Assembly (NCBI RefSeq): GCF_024006985.1
Contig: NZ_JAMXIB010000009.1
Coordinates: 1 to 64,000 of the forward strand
DNA: 64,000 bases
From: Robiginitalea marina
Lineage (GTDB): Bacteria; Bacteroidota; Bacteroidia; Flavobacteriales; Flavobacteriaceae
Direction: 5' to 3'
The translations under genes were made by a program, and so were the position numbers. Below, in pieces: positions 4,781-20,500 of this stretch (its first letter is position 1; each line of letters opens with the position of its first letter). Under the pieces are notes generated by a model. The model made no database searches. It saw only the letters and a program-made list of their open reading frames with translations, and was not told the DNA's origin.

Positions 4781-4857
4781 TGGTCGGGATGACTGGATTC
4801 GAACCAGCGACCACACGCACCCCATGCGTGTACGCTACCAGACTGCGCCACATCCCG
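4781..4857 (-). tRNA. tRNA-Pro (anticodon TGG)
   Basis: Read on the minus strand, the gene folds as a full cloverleaf. The acceptor stem is CGGGATG/CATCCCG and the D-arm includes GGCGCAGTCTGGTAGC. The anticodon stem is CACGC/GCGTG around loop ATGGGGT (anticodon TGG, proline), and the T-arm contains GGTTCGAATCC. An encoded CCA lies at 4783-4781. The 5' end is at 4857. No promoter box is visible directly upstream, so it may be transcribed from beyond the GIY-YIG gene (box at 5455-5462). A 27-base copy of its 5' part occurs at 5292-5318. Confidence 0.96.
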
Positions 4858-5022
4858 ATTAATTTTCTCAGAAGTAAAGGCAACCTTTATCTCCTACAGA
4901 ATTTCATTTTTTTTAAGAACGTATACGAACCTAATTATATTCAACCTACCATCAAGCCTAAGGCTCGATGCGGTTTAAGGTGTACCCGTGACTCAAGAAA
5001 ACTACAGGGACCACATGCCATT

Positions 5023-5265
5023 TCAGTTTTCTTCAAGATACCTGTTTATACCTCTTGCCTTTATCTGCCTTTCTAAACGTACCGCCTCAGAGCGCGTGCT
5101 ACATTCAAAACATCTGACAAGATTCCAGGGAATCCCCCTTGAGGTATATTTACTTCCACCTGTATTATGCCTTTGGAGGCGATCTTCCAAATTCTGGGTG
5201 TTGCCTACATAATACCGATTGAGTTTCTTACTATAAAGAACGTAAACTAAATAATTCATAAACAT
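5023..5265 (-). CDS. Small GIY-YIG nuclease-domain protein
   Basis: This 80-residue protein has the GIY-YIG signature: YVLYS, then NRYYVG eight residues later, then LEDRLQRHNTGG with the family's conserved Arg and His. RCFECSTRSEAVRLERQIK follows, with the conserved Glu. The length is normal for the single-domain bacterial branch (UvrC/YhbQ-like). It lies on the same strand as tRNA-Pro, between an intact tRNA downstream and a 5' tRNA-Pro fragment upstream. Its ATG begins only a few bases after the GGTCGC that ends the fragment. This context suggests a tRNA-targeting homing or capture event, which is inference. The start could also be the second Met at 5259. Confidence 0.85.
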   Translation of the reverse strand: MFMNYLVYVLYSKKLNRYYVGNTQNLEDRLQRHNTGGSKYTSRGIPWNLVRCFECSTRSEAVRLERQIKARGINRYLEEN

Positions 5266-5960: not shown

Positions 5961-7058
5961 ATGAAATCGCACCCTTTTTTCAGGCTCCTGATGATCGTCG
6001 TATCAGGTTTTCTGTTTGTCCAATGTACAAGTGACCCGATCCCCGGCCCTCCCGGAGAAGACGGGATAGACGGGGTTGACGGGGTTGATGGCCAGGATGG
6101 CGTTAGCGGAACCGCTTCCTGCGTGGCCTGCCACTCCAATGCCACCCGCGAGCCCATCCTCGCTTCCTTCGAGCTCTCCGCTCACGGATCGGGGACTACG
6201 TTTGCCCGGGGCGCCGGTGCCAACTGCGCCCAGTGCCACGGAAGCGAAGGGTTTATCGATTATGTGACCACCGGGGCAGTCGACACCACTGCAGGGGCCT
6301 ACAGCCCGGCCATGCCGGTCAGCTGCGCTACCTGCCACGACAGCCACCGCACCTTTGACTTCGAAAATGATGGCCCCGACTATGCCCTCCGCAACCCGGA
6401 TGCGCAAAACCTGGTCCTGGACCCGACCTATACCATCGATTTCGAAGGCTCAAGCAACAACTGTATCACCTGCCACCAGCCTCGTAACAGCTATGAAATC
6501 CCGGCGGTGAACACTTCGGGTACCTATATTATTACCAGTTCGCGTTTCGGCCCGCACTACGGCCCACAATCCACCATGCTGGAAGGCATCCTCGGGGCTC
6601 CGATTGCCGGTTCCACGGCATATCCCGGAGTGGGATCTGCCACCCACCGGACGGCGTCCTCCTGCGTGAATTGCCACATGGGCGAATCCAACGTAGCTGA
6701 TTTGGGAGGACACTCCTGGGTACCCACGGATGAATCCTGCATCCAGTGCCACCCCAGCGGCGCCCCGGAAGAAATGAACGGGTTTACCGAGGGCATGGCA
6801 ACCCTGGCCGGCCTACTCGCCAATGTAGTTGGAGAAGAGTACACCGAAGATGCTGACGGAAACCTTGTAGGTACCGGGGTACCGATCGTCGGGATCATCG
6901 TAAACGGTAGTGCCCGACTTGGAATCTGGCCCACAGAAGCTGCCCAGGCTGCGTGGAATTACAAAACCCTGGAGCAGGATCAAAGCCGCGGCATCCACAA
7001 CCCGGGCTATTCCAGGGCCCTGCTGAACAATTCCATCGAGGCGCTGCAGAACAATTAA
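5961..7058 (+). CDS. Hexaheme c-type cytochrome lipoprotein
   Basis: This 365-residue lipoprotein (signal and lipobox ending FLFVQC, Cys22) carries six CxxCH motifs: CVACH (54-58), CAQCH (89-93), CATCH (122-126), CITCH (168-172), CVNCH (235-239) and CIQCH (260-264). Between the lipid anchor and the first heme is a collagen-like Gly-x-y run of about 20 residues (GPPGEDGIDGVDG...), probably a stiff spacer. RFGPHYGPQSTML before the fifth heme is a segment I associate with other multiheme cytochromes. It is first in an operon with FeS, NrfD and beta-barrel genes, so it probably accepts electrons from the quinol side or passes them to an outer-membrane partner. The start at 5961 is preferred over 5931 because it gives a compact signal peptide. 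Confidence 0.88.
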   Translation: MKSHPFFRLLMIVVSGFLFVQCTSDPIPGPPGEDGIDGVDGVDGQDGVSGTASCVACHSNATREPILASFELSAHGSGTTFARGAGANCAQCHGSEGFIDYVTTGAVDTTAGAYSPAMPVSCATCHDSHRTFDFENDGPDYALRNPDAQNLVLDPTYTIDFEGSSNNCITCHQPRNSYEIPAVNTSGTYIITSSRFGPHYGPQSTMLEGILGAPIAGSTAYPGVGSATHRTASSCVNCHMGESNVADLGGHSWVPTDESCIQCHPSGAPEEMNGFTEGMATLAGLLANVVGEEYTEDADGNLVGTGVPIVGIIVNGSARLGIWPTEAAQAAWNYKTLEQDQSRGIHNPGYSRALLNNSIEALQNN

Positions 7059-7172
7059 ACCCTGATCCATGGGGTGCGCGGGCACAGGCCGGGATTTCCG
7101 GCGGGATTCGCGTACCCCATGGGAAAGGATTGGTCCCCACAAATATCCAGGGTACTCCTTAAACCTTTTAAA

Positions 7173-7559
7173 ATGAAGAAAAAAGCACTTCTTATCCTGT
7201 CGGGATGCCTCCTCATGTTTTCTGCTTCCTGTTATTACGACGAACTCGTGGCGGAAGAACTGCCCGACATCCCTGACGGGGAGGAAATCTCCTTTGCACA
7301 GGATATCGAACCCCTTTTCAGCCAGGACGGCAAAGACTGTACGCGCTGCCACGATGGCTCCACCGACCCCGACCTCCGTATCGGAAGGGCCTATAACGCC
7401 CTGGTACCGGATTATGTAGTGGCCGGGGATGCTGCAGCAAGCGAGTTCTTCCAGAAACTGCCGGGCCGCGGACACCCCTTCGATGTGGGCTTTGCATTGA
7501 GCGCCCAGGAAATTGCACTAATAGGGGCCTGGATTGATCGGGGCGCCGAGAATAACTAA
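7173..7559 (+). CDS. Monoheme c-type cytochrome lipoprotein
   Basis: This 128-residue lipoprotein has signal MKKKALLILSGCLLMFSASC. A single CTRCH heme motif lies near residues 59-63, within FAQDIEPLFSQDGKDCTRCH, the arrangement seen in Planctomycete-type cytochrome c domains (I...F...C..CH). The C-terminal helix LSAQEIALIGAWIDRGAENN matches the usual end of that fold. The start at 7173 is chosen because the open frame upstream lacks a signal. It lies about 115 bases after the hexaheme gene and 18 bases before the beta-barrel gene, so it is probably in the same transcript and shuttles electrons in the periplasm. Confidence 0.85.
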   Translation: MKKKALLILSGCLLMFSASCYYDELVAEELPDIPDGEEISFAQDIEPLFSQDGKDCTRCHDGSTDPDLRIGRAYNALVPDYVVAGDAAASEFFQKLPGRGHPFDVGFALSAQEIALIGAWIDRGAENN

Positions 7560-7577
7560 CCCTAAAGAACCGATACG

Positions 7578-8447
7578 ATGAGATTCCCATATTCCCTATT
7601 GCTGATCGTGTTTTTCTGCCCCCTGGGCCTGCTGGCGCAGGACGCGGAACCCGATTCTGTGAAGGTGGTGGACAAACCCGAACGCCCGGCCTTTGAAAGC
7701 AACTTCCTGATCGACAACCCCACCGACAAGCTCTATTTGAAAAACAGCCTGGAAGTGGTCTTCCAACACCGTTTCGGAACCATTTCCGGAGGGGAGAATG
7801 ACCTGCTTGGGATTTACGGCGCGGCCAATATCCGGATCGGGGTCGCCTATACCCTCCATGAACGCGTGCAGATCGGTTTCGGGACTGAAAAAAACCGGAA
7901 ACTCCAGGATTTTAACCTGAAACTGGGCCTGCTGCAACAGACCCGCTCCGGCAGGATCCCCGTGAACGTAAGCTATTACGGCAACGTGGCCATCGATGCC
8001 CGGAAAAAGGAAAACTTTGCCCTGGACCAACACCGGTACTCTTATTTTCATTCCCTGATTATTTCAAGGCGGTTTTCCCCGAATTTCTCCTTTCAGGTGG
8101 TCCCAAGCCTTTCCCACTTTAACGCAGTTCCGGAGGGGGCCCAAAACGACGTTTTCGGGTTGGCCTTCGGGGGGCGTTACAAGGTAACCCCGAATACGGC
8201 GATTACCATGGAATACACCATGCCCATGACGGACTGGGATGAGTCTTTTGAAGGGGTTAACAATCCTACTCCCGGCTTCAGCCTGGGGATGGAATTCGTA
8301 ACTTCCTCCCACGCCTTCCAGGTGTACCTGTCGTCCCTGAATGGAATTACGCCCCAGGCGAACTATTTCTTCAACGATAACCAGTTCTTTGATGGGTTCG
8401 ATAGTATCCTGTTGGGCTTTACCATCACCCGCCTGTATAATTTCTAA
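7578..8447 (+). CDS. DUF5777-type outer-membrane beta-barrel protein
   Basis: This 289-residue protein has a signal peptide (MRFPYSLLLIVFFCPLGLLAQ) followed by alternating amphipathic strands ending in a C-terminal aromatic (TITRLYNF), as in outer-membrane barrels. The segments LYLKNSLEVVFQHRFGTI and FGLAFGGRYKVTPNTAITMEY match what I know of the DUF5777 beta-barrel family, which in Bacteroidetes often sits beside cytochromes. It has no heme motif. With two cytochrome lipoproteins upstream and a quinol module downstream, it could form or support an outer-membrane electron conduit, comparable in logic (not in sequence) to MtrB-type porins. That role is inference. Confidence 0.8.
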   Translation: MRFPYSLLLIVFFCPLGLLAQDAEPDSVKVVDKPERPAFESNFLIDNPTDKLYLKNSLEVVFQHRFGTISGGENDLLGIYGAANIRIGVAYTLHERVQIGFGTEKNRKLQDFNLKLGLLQQTRSGRIPVNVSYYGNVAIDARKKENFALDQHRYSYFHSLIISRRFSPNFSFQVVPSLSHFNAVPEGAQNDVFGLAFGGRYKVTPNTAITMEYTMPMTDWDESFEGVNNPTPGFSLGMEFVTSSHAFQVYLSSLNGITPQANYFFNDNQFFDGFDSILLGFTITRLYNF

Positions 8448-8468
8448 TCACGAAACTGCCTGCATCCC

Positions 8469-8735
8469 ATGAAGAAAGAATCCAAGGATCCCACAGCTAT
8501 AGGAAGGCGGAAATTCCTTCCCATACTGGGGACCGGGCTTTTGCTGCCCTTGTTGCCCGCCCCTGTCCGGGCGGCTGAAACCAGGGAAGAAGAGGAATAT
8601 GTAACCCTCTTAAAACCGGATGGCACTACCGTTCGCGTTAAGGCCAGCAGCCTGAAAAAATCCAAAGTGGTACGGAAAAAAATCAGCAATTCAGAGCTGC
8701 GGGAGTGGCTGGATAAGGGCAAAGAACAGCGATAG
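8469..8735 (+). CDS. Small Tat-like protein related to the ferredoxin N-terminus
   Basis: This 88-residue protein has a twin-arginine-like leader: GRRKFLPILGTGLLLPLLP, then an Ala-x-Ala-like end. The mature part is short and highly charged (YVTLLKPDGTTVRVKASSL, then Lys-rich). The same plan, RRKFL leader, acidic stretch, then (I/V)xLxxxDGxxxxV, occurs at the start of the next gene's product (IELMDADGNIIEVDS). It looks like a stand-alone duplicate of that N-terminal module. It has no Cys and no cofactor motif. It lies 9 bases before the FeS gene. A chaperone, maturation factor or structural subunit of the FeS/NrfD complex are all possible; I cannot choose. Confidence 0.65.
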   Translation: MKKESKDPTAIGRRKFLPILGTGLLLPLLPAPVRAAETREEEEYVTLLKPDGTTVRVKASSLKKSKVVRKKISNSELREWLDKGKEQR

Positions 8736-8743
8736 GAACGATT

Positions 8744-9718
8744 ATGGAAGAAAACAACAAAGATGCCCGGCGCAAATTCCTGAACAACGGGTGGAAGCTC
8801 GGACTCGCCTCCATCCTCGGGGCCGGGGCCCTGGCCCACCTGAAGGACGGGTTTGCTTTCGAAGGTTCAGGGGAGTCCATCGAGCTGATGGATGCCGATG
8901 GGAATATTATAGAGGTAGACAGCACCGAACTGGAAGCCATGGCGCACCATATGGTGCCCCATGATGTGCGCAAGGGTATCCCCGGGCGCAAGTTCGTAAT
9001 GGTGGTGGACCTGGCCAAATGCCAAAATGCCCTGGCCTGCCAGAGGGCCTGCAACAAACACCACTTCGTAACCGGCGATAACGCCTGGTTGAAGGTGTAC
9101 AAAATGCAGGAAACGGAAGACACCTCCCCTTACTGGATGCCCAGCCTGTGCATGCACTGCGACAAGCCTGCCTGCGTCACGGTCTGCCCGGTAGATGCCA
9201 CCTTCAAACGGGAAGATGGCCTTGTGCTGATCGACAATGACCGCTGCGTGGGGTGCCGGTTCTGTATGGCGGCCTGCCCCTACTCCACCCGGGTCTTCAA
9301 CTGGAATGACCCGAAACAGGAATTCGAGCTGAGCATGGATGTCGTGGAACAAATGCACAGCCCCGAACATGCCGGGATGCCCAGTGTTAAGGGAACGGTG
9401 GACAAATGCGATTTCTGCCCGCACCAGGCCGTAAAAGGGGAACTACCCCACTGCGTGACGGCCTGCCCGAACGGGGTCTTCTATTTTGGGGACAAAAATG
9501 AGGACACGGTCACCAACGGCAACGAAACGGTGCGGCTGAGCGAACTGCTGGAGAAAAATGCAGGGTATCGCCTGTTTGAAGAAATGGGAACCGACCCCAG
9601 CGTATACTACCTGCCGCCCAAAGACCGCCTCCCCTTTGAAGAAGGCCTTGACAACTACAATGAATTCGAGTCGGTGGAAAAACCCGACGCAACCGTAGAA
9701 AATCCTGAGGCATCATGA
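8744..9718 (+). CDS. Tat-exported multi-cluster ferredoxin subunit (NrfC/PsrB-like)
   Basis: This 324-residue iron-sulfur protein has a DARRKFLNNGWKLG twin-arginine leader. Cys groups are at about residues 93/99/103, 136/139/144/148, 168/171/174/178 and 222/225/237/241, the layout of four-cluster electron-transfer subunits of the NrfC/PsrB/DmsB type. The first group, KCQNALACQRACNKHH, lacks the usual second Cys (C-x5-C-x3-C), so 15 motif Cys are visible rather than 16. It would pass electrons between the NrfD quinol site and the cytochromes. It overlaps nrfD by ATGA. No molybdopterin catalytic subunit, the usual partner of such proteins, is encoded beside it. Confidence 0.9.
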   Translation: MEENNKDARRKFLNNGWKLGLASILGAGALAHLKDGFAFEGSGESIELMDADGNIIEVDSTELEAMAHHMVPHDVRKGIPGRKFVMVVDLAKCQNALACQRACNKHHFVTGDNAWLKVYKMQETEDTSPYWMPSLCMHCDKPACVTVCPVDATFKREDGLVLIDNDRCVGCRFCMAACPYSTRVFNWNDPKQEFELSMDVVEQMHSPEHAGMPSVKGTVDKCDFCPHQAVKGELPHCVTACPNGVFYFGDKNEDTVTNGNETVRLSELLEKNAGYRLFEEMGTDPSVYYLPPKDRLPFEEGLDNYNEFESVEKPDATVENPEAS

Positions 9719-11049
9719 GCAGATACGAACAACTCATCAAGGACCTGGGACCCCAGAAATTCAATATGAGGGGAAAACTGTGGATGGGCTTCCTGTTGCT
9801 GCTTATCGCAGCCGGGGTAATCGCCTACATCGATCAGCTCATCCAGGGACAGGTGGTCACCAACATGAGGGACTATGTCCTGTGGGGCGTGTATATCTCC
9901 AACTTCGTGTATTTTGTGGCTACCAGTTTTGTAGCGGCCATCGCGGTGGCAGCCCTCAGGCTGACCAACAGCGAATGGCGGCGGCCCTTTGTTCGGGTGG
10001 CCGAGATCGTGGCGGTGGCCTGCATCATCATGGCGGGGATTACCATCATCATCGACATGGCGCGGCCCGACCGCATGCTGAACCTTTTTATCCATGCCCG
10101 CCTGCAGTCGCCCATTACCTGGGACGTAATTATTATCCCCACGTTTATGGTGGTGAGCATTTTGCTGCTGTATTTCCCGCTCCTGCCCGACCTGGCGATC
10201 CTTCGGGACCATTACGCCAAAACCAAGCCCCGCCTGAGCAAGATCTACGGGTTCTTTGCCCTGAAATGGAACTGGGCGGCCCAACAGGTGAAACTCCAGA
10301 AAAGGAGCGTGCACCTGCTGGCGCTCATGATCATCCCCCTCGGGCTGATCCTTGAATCCATCGATGCCTACCTGTTTTCAACTACCTACCGGGTAGGTTG
10401 GGATAGCTCGAATTTCGCCCCCTATTTCATCTCCGGCGCCATGGTGGCCGGCCTTGGGGCCCTCATTACAGTGGCATACATCATCCGGCGCGATAAAAAG
10501 CTTGAATCCTACATCACGGATTATCATTTTGACAAATTCGGCAAACTATTCAACCTTGCCCTGCTTATTTATGTCTATTTCAATATAAACGAATACGTGG
10601 TGCCCCTCTTTACTTCCAAGAAAGCGGAATCGGAACACCTGGAAACCCTCCTGAGCGGGGAATACGCCCTGCCCTTCTGGCTGGTCTCCATAGCAGGCCT
10701 GCTCCTGCCCGCCCTGCTGACGCTTTTTAAGCGGTTCAGGAAGCCGAGGGCCCTGTTCTACATCGCGGTGGTGGCAGTCATCGGGGCCTGGTGGAAACGG
10801 TACCTCATCGTGACCCCTACCCTGTTGCACCCCTTCCTCCCAATCCAGGGCGTCCCGGAATCATGGAGGCATTATTTCCCCAGCTTGCACGAATGGCTGA
10901 TCACCTCGGCAACCCTGGCAATGGCCCTGCTGATCATCACCCTCTTGGTCCGGTACGTGCCCATTATTTCCATTGACCGCCTGGCCGCGGAAGAAGGCCT
11001 TCCGGAATCAAAACATCCGGAATCAAAACATAAAGAGGCTGCCGTATGA
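9715..11049 (+). CDS. NrfD/PsrC-family integral membrane quinol subunit
   Basis: This 444-residue polytopic membrane protein has about nine or ten hydrophobic segments. The segment IIIDMARPDRMLNLFIHARL matches the NrfD/PsrC signature region (D-x-(G/A)-R-P-x-R), which lies near the quinone site. A second set of helices, including ISGAMVAGLGALITVAYIIRR, is typical of the family. It should oxidise menaquinol (or reduce menaquinone) in the inner membrane and exchange electrons with the upstream four-cluster ferredoxin. Start and stop codons overlap those of both neighbours (ATGA at each end), showing translational coupling. It lacks a fused heme domain. Confidence 0.92.
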   Translation: MSRYEQLIKDLGPQKFNMRGKLWMGFLLLLIAAGVIAYIDQLIQGQVVTNMRDYVLWGVYISNFVYFVATSFVAAIAVAALRLTNSEWRRPFVRVAEIVAVACIIMAGITIIIDMARPDRMLNLFIHARLQSPITWDVIIIPTFMVVSILLLYFPLLPDLAILRDHYAKTKPRLSKIYGFFALKWNWAAQQVKLQKRSVHLLALMIIPLGLILESIDAYLFSTTYRVGWDSSNFAPYFISGAMVAGLGALITVAYIIRRDKKLESYITDYHFDKFGKLFNLALLIYVYFNINEYVVPLFTSKKAESEHLETLLSGEYALPFWLVSIAGLLLPALLTLFKRFRKPRALFYIAVVAVIGAWWKRYLIVTPTLLHPFLPIQGVPESWRHYFPSLHEWLITSATLAMALLIITLLVRYVPIISIDRLAAEEGLPESKHPESKHKEAAV

Positions 11050-11924
11050 AAACAATGATAAATACCTGCAGCGCCCTGCCGCGCGTGTTTTGGCTGGCCC
11101 TGGCTTTCCTGCTGGCCCTGCCGACGGCTGCCCAGGATAAAAAAGAACGGCTTCGCGTCGGGGCCGTGTACACCAAAATCATGGAGGGCCCCGTAACCCT
11201 GGACCTCTCCACCTCCGCCCGGATTGACCGGAGCAACGTGAATGTCCCCGACATCGACCTGGAGGTGTATTACGAAGTGGACGGGGAGGAATTCCCCCTG
11301 GGTACCGTTCGCACCGATCAAAATGGGAATGCGCGGCTTACCCTTGAAAACCTTGGAAAGATCCAGCCCGATTCCACCGGCCTCTACATCCTGGGCGCCT
11401 CCTTCGCAGGCAACGAGATGTTCACCCGTGCCAGCAAGAGCGTGGAATTCCGGGATGCGGCCATCCGCGCCACCCTTGTGGAACAGGATAGCCTTCCGTA
11501 CATTGAAGCCACGCTTGCAGACCAGGCCACGGACAGCCTTGTGGCAGATGCCCTGATCAAGGTACAGGTAAAACGGATGTTCAAGCCGCTTCGCATCAGC
11601 GAAGACCTGCTGATGACCGATGAAGCCGGGAGCATCCTGGTGCCCGTTCCCACGGATATCCCGGGAAAAGGCGGCCTCCTTGATATAGAGGTGGTTATAG
11701 AAGACCACGAATCCTACGGGACCGTAAAAGCCCTGGTGGAAGCTCCGGTTGGCACGCCAATTGCAGTAGATTCCACATATGACGAAAGAACCCTTTGGGC
11801 CCGAAGCAGCCGCACCCCTATTTTTATCCTGGTCTTTACGGGATTGCTGGTGTTTGGCTCCTGGGGGCTCATCGTTTACCTGATTTTTAATCTATTCAAA
11901 ATTGCTAAAACCAAATACTCATGA
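11046..11924 (+). CDS. Membrane-anchored periplasmic protein of the electron-transfer operon
   Basis: I do not recognise this 292-residue protein as a named family. It has a signal peptide (hydrophobic core FWLALAFLLALPTAAQ). Two successive beta-rich, Ig-like segments of about 100 residues each follow: LEVYYEVDGEEFPLGTVRTD and ADALIKVQVKRMFKPLRIS. A C-terminal transmembrane helix (IFILVFTGLLVFGSWGLIVYL) is followed by a basic tail, so the bulk faces the periplasm. It has no heme or Cys motif. Its ATGA overlaps with nrfD and with the downstream cytochrome c gene tie it to the complex. A scaffold or docking subunit for the soluble cytochromes is a reasonable guess. Confidence 0.75.
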   Translation: MKTMINTCSALPRVFWLALAFLLALPTAAQDKKERLRVGAVYTKIMEGPVTLDLSTSARIDRSNVNVPDIDLEVYYEVDGEEFPLGTVRTDQNGNARLTLENLGKIQPDSTGLYILGASFAGNEMFTRASKSVEFRDAAIRATLVEQDSLPYIEATLADQATDSLVADALIKVQVKRMFKPLRISEDLLMTDEAGSILVPVPTDIPGKGGLLDIEVVIEDHESYGTVKALVEAPVGTPIAVDSTYDERTLWARSSRTPIFILVFTGLLVFGSWGLIVYLIFNLFKIAKTKYS

Positions 11925-12319
11925 AAACCCTTAGAATTCTAATCCCTATTGCCTTTCTTTCCCTCGTATTGTACGCCTTCACCACGCCCCCCCAGGACGA
12001 ATGGGTGGTGCCTGAAAAATACGTCAATATGAAAAACCCCACCGACCCGAAAGCGGATCTGAATATCGGCAAGGCCCTCTACAAGAAGCATTGCCAGTCA
12101 TGCCACGGGGCCGAAGGATACGGGGACGGCCCGAAAGCCGCCGGCCTGAAAGGGGACCTAGGCGATTTCTCCTCAGCCGAATACCAGGCTCAAACGGACG
12201 GGGCACTCTTCTATAAGACCTCTTTTGGACGGGGCGACATGCCGGAATACACCAAAAAAATGCCGGATGACGAAGACCGCTGGCTGATCGTCAACTACAT
12301 GAGGACCTTAAAGGAATAG
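11921..12319 (+). CDS. Class I cytochrome c
   Basis: This 132-residue exported protein has a hydrophobic N-terminus (signal or anchor), a CQSCH heme motif at 58-62 in GKALYKKHCQSCHGAEGYGDG, and a likely distal Met in GRGDMPEYTKKM. The C-terminal helix DEDRWLIVNYMRTLKE is characteristic of small c-type cytochromes. It would act as the periplasmic electron carrier of the operon. It overlaps the preceding gene by ATGA and is the last member before hemA, 66 bases downstream. Confidence 0.92.
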   Translation: MKTLRILIPIAFLSLVLYAFTTPPQDEWVVPEKYVNMKNPTDPKADLNIGKALYKKHCQSCHGAEGYGDGPKAAGLKGDLGDFSSAEYQAQTDGALFYKTSFGRGDMPEYTKKMPDDEDRWLIVNYMRTLKE

Positions 12320-12385: not shown

Positions 12386-13618
12386 ATGTTGAACCGGGAT
12401 TCTCATTTCAAATTCATCAGTATTTCGCACCAAACGGCCCCATTGGGCCGCAGGGAACGGTTCTATATTGCCGACCCCGAAAAAGGGGCCATTGCCGATG
12501 CGCTCTGCAAGGCCTTCCCGGGGATTACTTCCCTGCTCCTGCTGGTGACCTGCAACCGTACCGAGGTATACTTCGAAACAGACGATACCCCTGCAGCCGC
12601 GGTCAGGGATTTCTTCCTGGAGCAGCGGTTGGGGCAGGTACGTCCGGAAGACCGGGCCGATTTCACCCTCAGCGACAAAACCGGGGAAACCGTCAGGCAT
12701 CTCCTGCGGGTTTCGGCCGGGTTGGAGTCTTCGGTGCTGGGCGATGCAGAAATCATCCACCAGGTGAAAAAGGCCTATCACTTCTCCCTGGAACGCAACC
12801 TGCAGGGTTCCGTGCTGGAACGCTGCCTGCAAACGGTGTTCCGCTTCCATAAACGGGTGAGCAACGAGACCGCCTTCCGGGATGGGACCACGTCCACGGC
12901 CTACAAGGCCCTGAAACTGATTGGCGATACTTTTGGCACCGAAGGGGCGGATAAAAAGATCCTCTTTGTCGGGGCCGGGGATATCGTAGGACAACTTTTC
13001 AAGTATAACACCAAATTCGGGTACCGCAACCTGTGGATCACCAACCGGACGCAGGCCAGGGCCGAGCGCCTGGCGCAGGTCCACCGGGCCGCCGCCTGGC
13101 CATGGGAACGCTTGCTGGAAAACGACCTTGCCGGCTTCGATGTCATCATCAGTGCGGTGAGCAACGCCTCGGCGCTCATCCACAAAGGCGTAGGCCGCGA
13201 TAAACAGGTGCTGTTGGTAGACCTGGCCGTTCCCGGGAATATCGCCCCCGCCCTGGGGAAAGCCCAGAACGTGCTGCTGGCCGACCTGGACCATATCGCT
13301 TCCCACATCCAACAAAATAAGGAAGCCCGTATGGCCGCGACCCAAAAGGTAGAGCAGATCATCGAACAGGAATGGGAGGCGTTCATGGAATGGCATGCAA
13401 AGCAGCCCTATAGGGACCTGCTTGCCGGACGCAAAGAGGAAGTCGTTTCCCTGCTCTCCGAGATCGCGCAGCAGGAAGGGGCCGCCTGGAGCGAAGAAGA
13501 ACTGGACGGGCTGGCCAACCGGATGGTGCGCAAACTGCTGAAACACCCTGCCTCCCTGTATGAGGAAGCGCAGCTGCAGGAAGTCGTCTGGAGGAACCTT
13601 TCCCTTCAGGCCGTTTAA
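12386..13618 (+). CDS. hemA: Glutamyl-tRNA reductase
   Basis: This 410-residue enzyme reduces Glu-tRNA to glutamate-1-semialdehyde, the first step of C5 tetrapyrrole synthesis. The N-terminal ISISHQTAPLGRRE and the catalytic Cys56 in LVTCNRTEVYFE are present. The NADPH-binding segment ILFVGAGDIVGQLF and the C-terminal dimerisation helix region complete the usual layout. The canonical VLGE(T/P)QILGQVK is slightly altered to VLGDAEIIHQVK. The length is normal. It lies on the same strand 66 bases after the cytochrome operon. That fits co-location of heme supply with c-type cytochromes, although separate transcription is possible. Confidence 0.95.
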   Translation: MLNRDSHFKFISISHQTAPLGRRERFYIADPEKGAIADALCKAFPGITSLLLLVTCNRTEVYFETDDTPAAAVRDFFLEQRLGQVRPEDRADFTLSDKTGETVRHLLRVSAGLESSVLGDAEIIHQVKKAYHFSLERNLQGSVLERCLQTVFRFHKRVSNETAFRDGTTSTAYKALKLIGDTFGTEGADKKILFVGAGDIVGQLFKYNTKFGYRNLWITNRTQARAERLAQVHRAAAWPWERLLENDLAGFDVIISAVSNASALIHKGVGRDKQVLLVDLAVPGNIAPALGKAQNVLLADLDHIASHIQQNKEARMAATQKVEQIIEQEWEAFMEWHAKQPYRDLLAGRKEEVVSLLSEIAQQEGAAWSEEELDGLANRMVRKLLKHPASLYEEAQLQEVVWRNLSLQAV

Positions 13619-13638
13619 TCCATTAAAATAAAGGAACT

Positions 13639-14412
13639 ATGATCAATCGCGCTGGCGTAATGGGCCGCATTATTTTGGCCTCAGGCCTGGTTTTGGCAGG
13701 GATCTCCTGCAATATGGGCCCAAAAGAACTGGGGACTTTCCCCATCCAGGAAAACGGGGATGCGGTAGCTGCCCACAAAGACATTGTTTTGGACGTACAC
13801 CGGATCGTGGTCCGCGAGGCTGTCCCCACTTCCAAATACCTGTACCTCCGGGTGAGCGAAGGGGACCGGGAATACTGGGTGGCCACTGCCCTTTCGGAGG
13901 TTTCCGAGGGCCAGACCTACTTTTACAACGAGGCCCTGGTCAAAACCGATTTTGAGAGCAAGGAAATGGGGCGGGTCTTCGACACCCTCTACCTGGTAAC
14001 CCGCATGGTTCCCGAAGCCCACGGGGAAGGCCTCAAACCGGTCCGGGAAATCCCGGCCCCGCCCGAACAGGCGGCAAGTGGGGCTCCCAAAACCGGGTTT
14101 CACGGCAGCCCCCTGGCGGGGGAAGCCACCCCGCTCAGCATTGCAGATTTGCTGGCCGATCCTGCCAAATATGAAAACAAGGTGGTGGAACTAAAAGTCA
14201 CCTGTACCAAGGTGAACGAGGCGATCCTGGGGCGGAACTGGCTCCATGTAACCGATGGCAGCGCCGATGGGGCAGACCTTGTGGTTACCAGCGCCTCCAT
14301 GGCCGAGGTAGGCGAAAACATTACCCTGCGGGCCATCGTACACCTGAACCGCGATTTCGGGGCCGGGTACTCCTATGACGTCCTGCTGGAAGAAGGGGTG
14401 ATCCTTCCGTAA
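13639..14412 (+). CDS. Lipoprotein with C-terminal OB-fold-like domain
   Basis: This 257-residue protein has a lipoprotein signal (lipobox LAGISC). The first half repeats a binding-like beta pattern (VLDVHRIVVREAVPTSKYLYLRV, EYWVATALSEV). After a Pro/Ala-rich linker, residues ~150-257 (SIADLLADPAKYENKVVELK, then ILGRNWLHVTDGS) read as an OB-fold of the kind found in small periplasmic proteins of Bacteroidetes and Proteobacteria. No catalytic motif is seen. It follows hemA by 20 bases and may be co-transcribed. A role in heme, cytochrome or metal handling is only suggested by context. The start may instead be the Met at 13660. Confidence 0.7.
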   Translation: MINRAGVMGRIILASGLVLAGISCNMGPKELGTFPIQENGDAVAAHKDIVLDVHRIVVREAVPTSKYLYLRVSEGDREYWVATALSEVSEGQTYFYNEALVKTDFESKEMGRVFDTLYLVTRMVPEAHGEGLKPVREIPAPPEQAASGAPKTGFHGSPLAGEATPLSIADLLADPAKYENKVVELKVTCTKVNEAILGRNWLHVTDGSADGADLVVTSASMAEVGENITLRAIVHLNRDFGAGYSYDVLLEEGVILP

Positions 14413-14508: not shown

Positions 14509-17500
14509 TTAGCGATAGAGGGTAAAATGCCCTACGTACTGCTGCCTTTCATTGTCGTTGGCATTGACTACATACCAATAGTCCCCTGTGGGCAATTCCT
14601 TGCCTTCATAGGTGCCGTCCCAATTTTTTACCTGGTCGAGGATGGCCACCACGCGGCCATACCGGTCGTAGATCTTGACCTCAATACCCGGGAAGAATTC
14701 CCTGTTTAGCGGGGCCCAGAAGTCATTCATGCCGTCCCCGTCAGGGGTAAAGAAGTTCGGGAACTCGACCATGCCGTCAAAATCGAAGGGGAAAGTCACG
14801 CTGGCCTCACAGCCATTGCGGTCCACCACCCTTATGCTCACATTGGCGTCAAAGTTCAGGGTAAATACGTTCTGGCTTCCATAGGAATCGCCCTGGAAGA
14901 AGAATTCATACCCCCCGAAGCCTCCGCTGGCTGTCGCTGTGATTTCGTTTGGCCCGGTTTTCTGTGCGTCCAGCACCAGGGGTTCATACGCCTCCATGGT
15001 AAATTCCACGAAATTCGTACACCCGTTTTCGTGGTAAATGTATACCACGTGGTCCCCGGCCGGAAGGTCTCCCCAGCTGCGAACCGTATCCGCATTTGCA
15101 GTGACCGCATCAGTGGGGTCCACCGGGTCGAGGGCAAAAAGGACCTCATTGAGCACACTGCCGTCCTGCAGGGCCACCGTAACGGTGCTGAACGGGAAAA
15201 TACCGTCGCAACCATACTGAGGGATGACCTCGGCGCTGAGGTCGACCCCAATTTCCACAGGGATAACCACATTGGCCGTACAGCCGTTGGCGTCGCGCAC
15301 AAAGACCACATACGATTCGCCCCCTTGCAGGTTTTCAAAGAGTAGGGCGTCGTTGCGCACAAAATCGGCATCATCTGCAGAATTCAGGCTGGTCTCGTAG
15401 TAGGTGGCCCCGCCGGCATCCGTAAAGGGGGTCCCCCCGGTGATGGTCACCATGGCGCTCCCGTCGGCGAACCCGATACAGGTCTCCGGCAGGGTCGTAA
15501 AGGAGAGGTCCAGGGGATCGGGCTCCACCACCCGTACCGTGGTAAGCTCCGAGCAACCCTGTTCATCCTGGATCAGGACGTCGTATTCCCTGCCCGGGAA
15601 GGGGGCCCCTTCCAGGTCTGTGAACGTATAGACCCCGGGGGTAGCCGGATCACTGAAGAATTCCGTGAAATTGGGCTCTATGGCGAACTGGAGCAACCCC
15701 TGCCCCCCACTGGCCACTTCAATGGTAATGCTTCCGTCAGCTTCCCCGGAACAGGATACGGGGGTACTGGTAGCCGTAAACAGGATGGGGTCCGGACGCG
15801 ATATCACCAGGGGGCCTTCCACGTCCCCGCAGGTACTGCCGCTGGTTACCGCCACGTAGTATTCCGTGCCGTCGGGAAGCCCTTCAAAGGTCCCATCGGG
15901 CTGGGGGCCGCGGACCACCACGGCGCCTGGCGCCGGGTTGAACGGGTCGGGCCCGGGATCGCCGTTGTAGAGGATAAAGCTGTTGTTGCCCACCCCCCCT
16001 GACGCAAAGGATTCGATACGGCCATCCAGTTCGTTTGCACAGGAAATGTCGTCGGGAAGGTTCACCACCAGGTCGAGGTCCTGGGCATCGATCAGGGTCA
16101 GCCCGTTGGAGCGCACCACATCACAGGTATTGGCGGCATTGACCTTGCGCACGTCGAACTGATAGAACCCGGGGCCCCCGGGGATCAGTACGGAGGTTAC
16201 GCCGGCCCCCATGGAAACGAAGGGGTCTGATGGCGATGCCCCTACAGGCCGGTACTCGTAATCGAAGCCAGCTTCGGGGTTGGTGATCAATAGCCGCATT
16301 TCCCCGTTCCCGCCGCAACCCGGGGCCTGTACCTGTACCAGGTTGGGGAGTACGGGCGGGGGCGGATTCACGAAATACGGGGCGGTAACCCCCACGCAGG
16401 CATAGCTCGACGACACCTCAATGGAATACCACCCGGTACTGATATAGCCCACCCCTGCCGTTCCGGCAAAAGTCGGGGAATCCTGCAGCCCGCTGCGGGA
16501 AAGCTCATCGGTAGGGTCGTTGCTGCCGAGGTAAATCAGCTGGTATTTGTACCCGGCACCGGCCACCCCGCCGGAAGCCCCGGCAACTGCGGTCAGGGCA
16601 TCCCCCGTGGCAGGGTCATAAGCTTCCAGGACGGCATTATTGCCCCCGGGGCATACCAGGCCCTGGGGCTCGCGGATGCCCACTGCAATGGGGGGGATGG
16701 CATCCAGGGTAATCGCCGTCTGTTCGGTACATCCCTCGATATCGCGCACCTCCACCCGGTAAGCGCCGCTGCCAAGGTTTTCAAAGCGGTCGGCGGGGCC
16801 GAAAGGGGCCACTTCCACAAAGGTACCGCCGGCATCCTCAACCAGGAGCCTGTATTCATAAGGGAAGGTATCCCAGCCCCCCGATGCGGTAACAGAAATA
16901 ACCCCCGCATTGTCGGCGCAACTCACATTGCCTTCTTCAACAGCGGACACGGCAAGCGGGCCGTTCGGGGCGCGGACCGTAGCCACGTTGCTCTCGGCCG
17001 GGCAGCCCGGGGCATCCACCGAGGTGATTTCCACGATAAAGTTCCCCCCGGGCAGCCCGGAAATCCGTGCGGGGTCCCCGCTGGCATCGGGGAAGTTGTT
17101 GGTGTCGAAGCTCCCGCTGGCCACCGCGGGCAGGACCCGGTTCCCGTTGTTATCGACCCGGAAGGCCTGGTAGGTATAGGCGCCGGTATACTGGGTCACC
17201 TCGATAAACAGGGCCCCGTCGTTCCCCGGGATGGCGCACCTCACCGGGTTGGCTTCGCTGATGACCGCCAGGGGATAGGTGGGTTCCACCACCTCGTGCA
17301 GGGGCAACGGGTAGCTGCATCCGGCCGTATTATCGGCTACTTCCAAAAGGTATCCCCCGGCTGCCGGGAGGTCCAGCAACACAAAGTCATTTCCTGGCAC
17401 ATTGGTAACCGGGGATACGGCCGCCGGCCCGCTGGTCAGGGACACCGTGAAATCGGAGGTCCCGACCACCTGCACGCGCACCTGCTCAGGGGTGGTACAG

Positions 17501-20500
17501 GTCAGGGCCTGTTCGACAGTAAGGGTGGGCACCACATCCGTAGGGGGGTTCAGGGTCGGCAGGGTAAAAGTTGCCTGGCATCCGTTACCGTCTATGGCAT
17601 AGACGGTCAGGGTCTGGGGGGATCCGTTATCCACCACTTCGAAGGTATTGGTGCCCTGGTAATTCCCAAAGCCGGTGAGGCTGAACTGGTATCCGCCAGC
17701 TGCCGTTCCGGGGTCCACCACAGAAACGGTAACCACTGTGGAACTAAAGCGGTTGGCCCCCGGTTCACAGGCAAAGTCCGGGGCACTGGCCGTGATGGAA
17801 AAAGGTGCGGGTTCGCTGATCTGTATGCCGTCAAACCGATCTTCGCAATCCCTTGAGGAAACCACGGTTACGTCGTAAACCCCGGGGGTGAGGCCCGGGA
17901 AGGACCCGGAATTGTTCTGGGCAACCACCACCGCGGTGCCGCCTTCATAGAGGGTATAGACCAGGGGGGCATCCACATCTGTGCCTGCCTGCAACACCAC
18001 GTCTATACTGCCGTCATTTGCGCCGGTGCATGAAATGTCCGATTCCAGGATGGAGCTGATTACCGGGGGAATGGCGGCATCCAGGGTAATCTGGTCCACA
18101 AGGAAAGTACAGTTGCCCGTGGCATCCACCACCAGGTTGTCGGTCACCAGTACCTCGTAGTCGCCGGGGGCATATCCGGTGAACACCCCGGTGGTATTGT
18201 CGGCGATATAGGTGCCGCTGCCATCGCGCAGTTCATAGGTAAAGTTGCCGCTGCCCCCCATGGTGGTAATAATGATTTCCCCGTCGCTGCTGTTGCAGGA
18301 AGGCTGGGTAGTGAAGCCGCCTGAAGCGGCGAGGAATTCGTATACCCTGGCGGTATCCTGGCTGGTGCAGCCATTGGCGTCCACCACGCTAACCAGGTAG
18401 TCGCCCGGGCTTGCCACCGTATAAGTGTATTCGTAAAAACTGCCGTTGAGCACGCCAAATTGCTCGTCCCCATTCAGGTTGAAGCGGGGGGTATCCACGC
18501 TGAAAGGCATACGCACCAGGATGTCAAAACTGGTAGCCGTAACGTCGCACTGGTTCTCGACTACAAAAATCGGGGCAGGCAGGTCCGGGTCGAGGGCGAT
18601 GATGGTGGCAATGGCAAAAGAAGTACAGCCGGTAACGTCCCGCACGTACACATCGTAGGTGCCGGCCGGCCCTACAAAGGTTGTTTGGGAGGTCCAGTCA
18701 GCCGGGGTCGGGGTTGCCCCGCCCGCCATATAGGCAAAGTCATATGGGCCGCCACCCCCGCCGGATCCCTGGACGGTAAACTGCCCAAAGGCGTTGCAGT
18801 TGGCGGGTTCCTCCGCCAGGATGTCGATGGAGGGCAGGTTCTGGTCTATGGTTACCGAAGCAGCATCCGTACAGTCATTGGTAAGGTCCGTAACGATGAC
18901 CTGGTAATTTCCCGGGAGGGTTTCGTAGGTATTGCTGTATACCGGGGACACTCCTGAAGGGTTCTCCAGGGTAATGCGGGTGCCGTCGTCGGTATTGAGC
19001 AATTCGATCAGAAGGTTGGCGCCCGGGGCAAACCCGTCCACGTTGTAGGTGATTTGCCCGTTCCGGTTCAGGTCGCAGAAACCTGGGGTGGAACTGGCGG
19101 TGACTTCCAGGGGGGAAGGCCCGTCAATCGGGGCAATTTCATCCAGGTAAATACACCCGGTACCCAGGTCGGTAACTTCCACCACATAGGCCACGCCAAA
19201 CTGCAGGCCGCTGAAGGTATGCCTCCTGGGGGGGCTGTTCGGGCTCACCGGGGGCGCCGGGTCCGTCGCCAAACGGATCAGGAAAGGTCCAACCCCTCCC
19301 ACGATTTCCACCGTGTTGGAAAAGCCCGCTGCATCGCAAACCGGCAGGGGTACGGGGTCCGGGACCACATCCAGGGTGGTCTGGTCCACAACCACCAGGT
19401 CTTCATCCCGGCAACCGAAGGCGTCCAGGGTCACTACACGGTAAGGGCCGGGGGCGAGTCCCGTAAAAGTTTCCGCCGTACTGGAGGTAGGGCCAATCCG
19501 GTCCAGTTCGTTTCCAAAGGCATCCTGCAGGATGTAGGTAAAATCGGGGGTTCCCCCGACTACCGAGGTCACCTCCACCTGCCCTTCCACAACCCCTGAA
19601 AGGCAGGCCGCCGTTACCGGGGCCACGGTGGCATCCGGGGGCGGGGTGCCGTCCGCAGGGATCAGCACGGAAGCAGGCAGGGTCTCACACCCCCGGGCAT
19701 CGCGCACCACATAGGAATAGGTCTGCCCTGCCAGCAGGCCTGAGAAGACGCTCTGCGGGCCAAAGGGGCCCCCGTCGAAGCTGACTTCGTAAGGGGGTAC
19801 CCCGCTGGTGGCATCGGGGGTGATCGTCAGGATACCATTGTCGGTTTGCCCGCAACTGGCCGGGATGACGGAAATGGCCGCAGGGTCAATATTGACTGGT
19901 GGGTTGAGGGTAACAGGGGTGGAAAGGGCAACACACCCCTGGTTATCCGTCACCCGGAACACGTAATCCCCGGGGACATTGGTACTGTACAGGAACGGGC
20001 TGACGGGTAACGGGCTGGCCGGGCCGAAGGTAACCCCGCTATCGGCGCTCACCTCGTACTGTTTAGGCCCGGCTCCCAGGAGGTACCCTCCGGAAACCTG
20101 CACTTGCAGGGCCCCGTCAGGGCCCCCGCAGGGGATTTCCGTATCGATGGAAGCGGTTACCCGGAGTTGCGGGTTCACGGTTGCCGTAACCGAATCGCTA
20201 CAGCCATTGCCGTCCACAACTTCAATGGTGTAAGTGCCCGGGGCAAGGCCGCTGAATACCGGGCTGGCCTGGAAGCTACCGCCTGCCAGGCGGTACTGGT
20301 GGGTCCCTGCGGGGGCAGTGCCGGCGGTGGAAACCACGGCCAGGGTAGCGCCGGGCCCCGGAACATAACATAGGTCTGTGGCGCCGGCATCAAGGGCCAG
20401 GGTTGGGGCGTCAATGGGGGTCAGGGTAAAGGCAAAGGTCGCCGTGCACCCTTCTGCGTCTTCCACGGTCAGGATATAATCGCCGGGAAGGGCCAGGCTG

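Follow-up and report, generated by a model that had tools for sequence, protein, structure and literature searches.

The window analysed here is a stretch of 64,000 nucleotides of the Robiginitalea marina genome (contig NZ_JAMXIB010000009.1, positions 1 to 64,000; assembly of 3.25 Mb in 49 contigs, completeness 99.99%). It contains an operon of eight open reading frames (ORFs) on the forward strand, positions 5961-12319, which a preliminary description had read as a quinol-linked electron-transfer system with a hexaheme lipoprotein, an outer-membrane barrel and no terminal reductase. ORF calls within the window and domain scores verified all eight genes, their common strand and their order.

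The first gene (5961..7058) encodes HEX, a lipoprotein with six CxxCH motifs and a collagen-like spacer, whose lipobox FVQ|C is followed by GPPGEDGIDGVDGVDGQDGVSG. The next gene encodes a monoheme c-type lipoprotein (mono, 7173..7559; CTRCH, lipobox) and partners the DUF5777 gene behind it (7578..8447), the product of which scored 238.1 bits against PF19089 (gathering cut-off 23.1) and is predicted to form an outer-membrane barrel of 12 strands. Then follow a small protein with an RR signal for twin-arginine translocation (Tat; 8469..8735), a Tat-exported iron-sulfur (FeS) protein of 324 amino acids (aa; 8744..9718), an NrfD/ActC-like membrane protein with the presumed menaquinol site (9715..11049; PF03916, 103.8 bits), the 'Ig' protein (11046..11924) and cyc, a monoheme cytochrome c anchored in the membrane by an N-terminal hydrophobic segment (11921..12319; PF00034, 47.7 bits). 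By hydropathy, the 'Ig' protein has a signal peptide, a periplasmic domain and a C-terminal transmembrane segment. Its alignment is conserved, but no Pfam family matched it, and the earlier label 'Ig-like' is retained here as a name without confirmation.

Conservation of the operon and its variable first gene

Searching genome contigs with the FeS protein, we confirmed 150 relatives and retained the best 80 loci; the best named matches were Eudoraea and Robiginitalea records. A query with one protein collects close relatives only, and many of the kept loci end at contig ends; gene counts were limited to loci with enough flank. Among the 50 loci with 5 kb or more upstream, mono was present in 47, DUF5777 in 48, the small Tat protein in 46 and a cytochrome in the first slot in 47, while the 57 loci with at least 4 kb downstream contained NrfD (57), Ig (55) and cyc (55). 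That is, the conserved co-occurrence for which a search had been proposed was found: the 80 flavobacterial loci carry the operon in the same gene order and for the most part whole, and its genes occur together more often than by chance. Two loci (L085 and L096) have FeS-NrfD-Ig-cyc but neither mono nor DUF5777 nor a slot gene, and one (L087) lacks mono, Ig and cyc.

In 70 of 71 loci no more than 22 bp separate mono from DUF5777. Intergenic distances up to 60 bp were the rule for Tat-FeS (72/72), FeS-NrfD (79/81), NrfD-Ig (68/68) and Ig-cyc (64/66), with looser spacing for DUF5777-Tat (44/61) and HEX-mono (8/38). The ATGA overlaps described for the last four genes exist in the window operon (9715-9718, 11046-11049 and 11921-11924), but they are not a strict feature across the kept loci, where the four-base overlap occurs at 36/81 FeS-NrfD, 57/68 NrfD-Ig and 7/66 Ig-cyc junctions. 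Some loci carry FeS-NrfD-Ig-cyc two or three times in tandem (L057, L062 and L071 among them), and since it is duplicated as a unit, this quartet is likely the complex in the membrane.

The first slot, ahead of mono, can hold different genes. Among the same 50 loci, the slot was filled by HEX alone in 30, HEX plus EB_dh (PF09459) in nine, EB_dh alone in seven and a diheme protein in one, and was empty in three; in L111, counted as HEX plus EB_dh, HEX lies downstream of the operon. In L050 and L107 an EB_dh head is joined to the lipid and collagen-like anchor typical of HEX, which is good evidence that HEX and EB_dh heads serve one position.

Within the family the distribution of the operon is patchy. 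An NrfD orthologue (at least 56% identity) was found in 16 of 248 other genomes drawn from the family, and not in the sole other genome of the genus within this sample. The NrfD type (1e-55) occurred in 14 of 392 sampled Bacteroidota genomes, five of which had a HEX-family match (G000, G125, G181, G388 and G594), within the operon only in G000, G125 and G181; HEX as a strict partner of the operon NrfD is thereby ruled out. In distant genomes DUF5777 adjoins NrfD genes together with YceI (L187), with EB_dh (L188, L189) or with neither (L185, L186); in L190 it stands on the opposite strand, and the sequence of L191 ends before its position can be judged. A different NrfD-FeS-tetraheme set adjoins the operon on the opposite strand in L103 (17599-20008), L069 and L095.

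The membrane quartet and molybdopterin subunits

The FeS protein has 15 invariant cysteines (81/81 main and 27/27 secondary copies). Its motif I lacks the second cysteine, whereas in alternative complex III (ACIII) the third motif is altered instead (chain 6btm_B). By NarH numbering, we take motif I to serve the cluster closest to the catalytic subunit, and the loss of this cysteine would fit another electron partner. Four PDB chains matched NrfD, among them 6lod_C (4e-39) and 6btm_C, subunit C of ACIII (2.5e-32); the three other than 6btm_C, named NrfD, are presumably ACIII as well. Thus NrfD is nearest to ActC chains, and the operon resembles ACIII in its NrfD, its FeS protein and its anchored monoheme cytochrome, but it lacks the molybdo-like ActB domain as well as ActA, ActD and ActF. 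Among NCBIfam models, the FeS protein scored best on DsrO (177.2 bits, cut-off 200) and NrfD on DsrP (117, cut-off 350), both below cut-off, and DsrM, DsrK and DsrJ are absent from the operon. Cyc has a CxxCH and a conserved Met (M107, at 0.95 in 65 sequences). The RR of the small Tat protein is present in 0.99 of 72 homologues; examined for possible paralogy with the N-terminal part of the FeS protein, its profile gave weak matches to FeS proteins (best E 0.00025).

In the preliminary description, modules of this kind were said normally to serve a catalytic subunit such as a molybdopterin enzyme or NrfA. FeS-NrfD modules that lack a molybdo-subunit are not uncommon (DsrJOP, Hmc and Tmc), which together with the best, though sub-threshold, score of the FeS protein on DsrO weakens that expectation. 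BLAST with three molybdo-type queries revealed no molybdo-type subunit among ORFs from the 80 loci and the first 24 kb of the window, where not all flanking genes are annotated; the one weak match (2.7e-5) lies in L026, an ActC-type locus. By this search, no conserved molybdopterin subunit is encoded with the homologous operons, as had been supposed. The more distant NrfD loci L193-L195 (33-36% identity) have such a subunit, of 818 aa in L193 and L194. Several multiheme cytochromes were observed beside FeS-NrfD at these three loci. The source genome itself has two PF00384 genes, one formate dehydrogenase-like by eye and one Tat-type enzyme. Counting its own genome, five of 249 in the family have the latter type, and the other four do not overlap with the 16 genomes that have an NrfD orthologue. 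Since it does not co-occur with the operon, it was ruled out as a partner encoded elsewhere.

Hexaheme protein, surface signals and barrel

In profile searches HEX matched octaheme nitrite reductase (ONR, 6.4e-13), OcwA (5.5e-11), NrfA chains (from 3.6e-9) and an MtrC-family protein (1.5e-7). An AlphaFold2 model (44 sequences, pLDDT 77.6, pTM 0.79) gave two Foldseek matches below 0.001, both of them chains of OcwA from Thermincola potens (PDB 6i5b, best 1.7e-4); ONR and NrfA came next, with E values of 0.01 or worse. With OcwA, HEX has the order of the last five hemes in common, and with ONR and NrfA the C-terminal helices and an HNP motif. By profile and predicted fold, HEX belongs with NrfA, ONR and OcwA. 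It also exceeded the Pfam cut-offs for MtrC/MtrF domain II/IV, cytochrome c7, cytochrome c3 and NrfB-like proteins, so heme motifs alone are not decisive; membership of the decaheme DmsE/OmcA family was rejected, the score being far below cut-off. Given this superfamily, the statement that the operon has no terminal reductase is true of molybdo-subunits only.

Of the 48 ORFs first taken as HEX, three (the incomplete L048, and L050 and L107 with their EB_dh heads) were left out before the conserved residues were aligned. In an alignment of 44 HEX rows, CxxCH is present at all six hemes in 44/44. Heme 2 (CAQCH) aligns with the CIQCK heme of ONR, and heme 4 is followed by QPR or QSR, where ONR and NrfA have VEY. 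Lacking both the CxxCK heme and the VEY motif, HEX was ruled out as an NrfA-type nitrite reductase. Between hemes 4 and 5 lies GPH[H/Y]GPQ, and H178 and R154 are invariant in 44/44 close and 33/33 wider rows. The OcwA study describes hemes 2 and 5 as five-coordinate under the His-His pairs 281/282 and 380/381, with heme 5 superposing on the active heme of NrfA (PMC6703420). The interval of H178 corresponds to that between OcwA hemes 7 and 8, which holds HH380/381 if SHH at 252-253 of the chain equals HH281/282. The residue after H178 is His in 35 and Tyr in nine of the 44 rows, and the match to the OcwA His-His pair is by interval only. Five further histidines are conserved (54, 108, 208, 230 and 325; H208 is unaligned in the wider alignment) and would suffice for the remaining hemes. 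Judged from these alignments, heme 2 is probably open under the invariant H178.

HEX-family matches (1e-15) were obtained in 68 of the 392 Bacteroidota genomes, and we examined 32 such proteins from 29 match places. Six are short, with a lipobox and with GXY repeats. Among the 26 long ones, 21 have nine CxxCH and 25 a YPNP tail, and the type IX secretion system (T9SS) domain TIGR04183 was present in 26 of 33 rows (the window HEX added to the 32), a row count of which L201, L202 and L204 were verified singly. The long relatives at L201, L202 and L204-L224, from other Bacteroidota, mostly share the nine-heme count of OcwA and carry T9SS tails. HEX relatives also occur within clusters of 8-14-heme cytochromes (L199, L200, L203), in which we observed a barrel-like protein of 423-442 aa without Pfam match. 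At L196 (4223-7114) and L198 (3622-6911) HEX adjoins a 408-aa barrel-like protein with an N-terminal CTGCH (Cyc2-like by eye), besides a Rieske protein and a monoheme cytochrome.

Surface location was further assessed by the residues behind the lipobox. The surface signal tested in Flavobacteriaceae is C-X-K-(D/E)2-X or similar (PMC5080379). An acidic residue at +4 was found at fractions of 0.92 in EB_dh (n=25, C-T-H-D-D), 0.83 in HEX (n=48, C-T-S-D) and 0.69 in mono (n=64, C-Y-Y-D), versus 13 of 52 other lipoprotein-like ORFs, which were searched with a slightly different pattern; in this count the simple lipobox pattern placed some registers too early. The HEX fraction was taken from the 48 ORFs instead of the 44 aligned rows, which had been selected by a motif requiring acidic +4. 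By this motif, the surface export signal is good for EB_dh and partial for HEX and mono. Our literature search, which did not reach most subscription papers, returned no paper linking type IX secretion, a multiheme cytochrome and extracellular electron transfer.

DUF5777 was detected in 162 of the 392 genomes. Of 20 loci picked from the matches listed, 16 encode a small CxxCH, Cx3-4CH or Rieske-like protein up to 2.2 kb upstream and 15 a YceI-like protein, counts from simple patterns that miss some visible redox proteins; PF04264 and PF00355 were verified on example neighbours. A redox link of DUF5777 looks general. In these phylum-wide loci (L146-L165) the small redox protein is a monoheme protein, or a Rieske protein in L149 and L155, with YceI upstream. 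No paper naming DUF5777 was found, again with most subscription papers outside the search. A structure prediction of the barrel with the cytochromes had been proposed; a model of mono fused to DUF5777 (102 rows, pLDDT 91.1, pTM 0.69) has 12 strands and lends no support to docking of the two. The best Foldseek matches of the barrel were the COG4313 channel, FapF, NanC and other porins, and MtrB was not among the best 50 of 974 matches. MtrB sheaths a cytochrome; the 12-strand barrel of DUF5777, which resembles solute channels, is probably too small for such a role. A heme wire through the modelled barrel is therefore unlikely. The operon resembles MtrCAB in that a barrel gene adjoins a multiheme lipoprotein and outer cytochromes are exchangeable, but its barrel has 12 strands and no decaheme inner partner is encoded. 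We also considered a split Cyc2 with mono as the barrel plug. In Cyc2 the monoheme domain is fused to the barrel; here there are two separate genes, 12 strands and a pTM of 0.69, and the idea is unsupported.

Proposed electron route and rival explanations

We give a chance just above even to a menaquinol-linked chain that serves exchangeable surface cytochromes, with HEX as the probable terminal reductase. NrfD and the Tat-exported FeS protein, held together with the 'Ig' protein, would take electrons from menaquinol and hand them to the anchored cyc. From cyc they would reach the outer-membrane lipoprotein cytochromes, namely mono, encoded beside DUF5777, and then HEX, EB_dh or the diheme head. 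As heme 2 is probably open under an invariant His, HEX itself probably reduces the last acceptor, which might be a metal oxide, a flavin or quinone shuttle or a small nitrogen or sulfur compound. This reading also draws on the tandem quartets, the T9SS tails of HEX relatives, their presence beside 8-14-heme cytochromes and the anchor exchange in L050 and L107. According to PMC6703420, OcwA acts as a cell-surface terminal reductase; it is a nine-heme protein on a Gram-positive wall, whereas HEX is a six-heme protein with a lipid anchor and a collagen-like spacer. The preliminary description had suggested electron export to the cell surface or to a reductase encoded elsewhere. The conserved quinol module with cytochromes bearing surface signals speaks for export, but the reductase may be HEX itself, which is better supported than one encoded elsewhere. 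The part given to the barrel in the conduit is weakened by its 12 strands and its likeness to small-solute channels.

Several points weigh against such a surface chain. No phenotype is known for the operon, and the link between HEX and NrfD is loose (five of 14 genomes with a match, three in the operon). In HEX and mono the signal includes a single acidic residue, short of the tested C-X-K-(D/E)2. A chain of hemes could not plausibly fit inside the predicted barrel, and the fused model shows no docking of mono on it. Moreover, likeness of heme motifs may inflate any single family assignment of HEX.

A first rival is a chain that stays in the periplasm, where HEX or EB_dh would reduce a soluble acceptor entering through DUF5777 (nitrite, NO, hydroxylamine or a sulfur or selenium oxyanion). 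The grouping of HEX with ONR and NrfA, the likeness of DUF5777 to solute channels and a slow nitrite reduction by OcwA itself, reported in PMC6703420, are consistent with it. We nevertheless consider it unlikely, in view of the missing CxxCK heme and NrfA-type VEY motif after heme 4, the surface-type lipoprotein signals and the T9SS tails of the long HEX relatives. Identical parts could run either way, and sequence does not fix the direction, so that Fe(II), a sulfur compound or a partner cell might instead feed HEX or EB_dh, then cyc, NrfD and the quinone pool; with NrfD nearest to ActC of the quinol-oxidising ACIII and HEX nearest to reductases, such import appears improbable.

Little credence is also given to two merely neighbouring systems, an ACIII-like quartet that feeds oxidases and an unrelated set of lipoproteins with a barrel. 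The extra quartet copies and the two loci with FeS-NrfD-Ig-cyc but no outer-membrane genes (L085, L096) would fit, yet mono-DUF5777 accompanies an NrfD gene in other orders as well (L185-L189), and the genome already has, on contig C2, what we take from gene order and size to be a complete ActA-F-like cluster with oxidase genes behind it. Equally doubtful is a separate kind of outer-membrane electron exchange in Bacteroidota centred on DUF5777, in which a 12-strand channel would be paired with a monoheme or Rieske protein and often a YceI lipocalin, a small redox shuttle, not a heme wire, would cross the membrane, the NrfD quartet would feed it in some lineages, and HEX, EB_dh or the type IX-secreted nine-heme forms would finish the chain. 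If the chain from menaquinol to surface cytochromes is true, extracellular electron transfer would extend to a large marine group, the flavobacteria, with an OcwA-type reductase, and would include lipidated and type IX-secreted cytochromes; DUF5777 would gain a testable redox role.

Downstream of the operon (12386-14412, forward strand) lie hemA and a gene for a 257-aa protein without known family; hemA (at least 40% identity, same strand) is found in 22 and the 257-aa protein in 17 of the 80 loci. On the reverse strand, an SprB-repeat protein of 2843 aa with a CHU_C type IX secretion domain is encoded at 14509-23040, and a tRNA-Pro adjoins the gene for an 80-aa GIY-YIG domain protein at 4781-5265.

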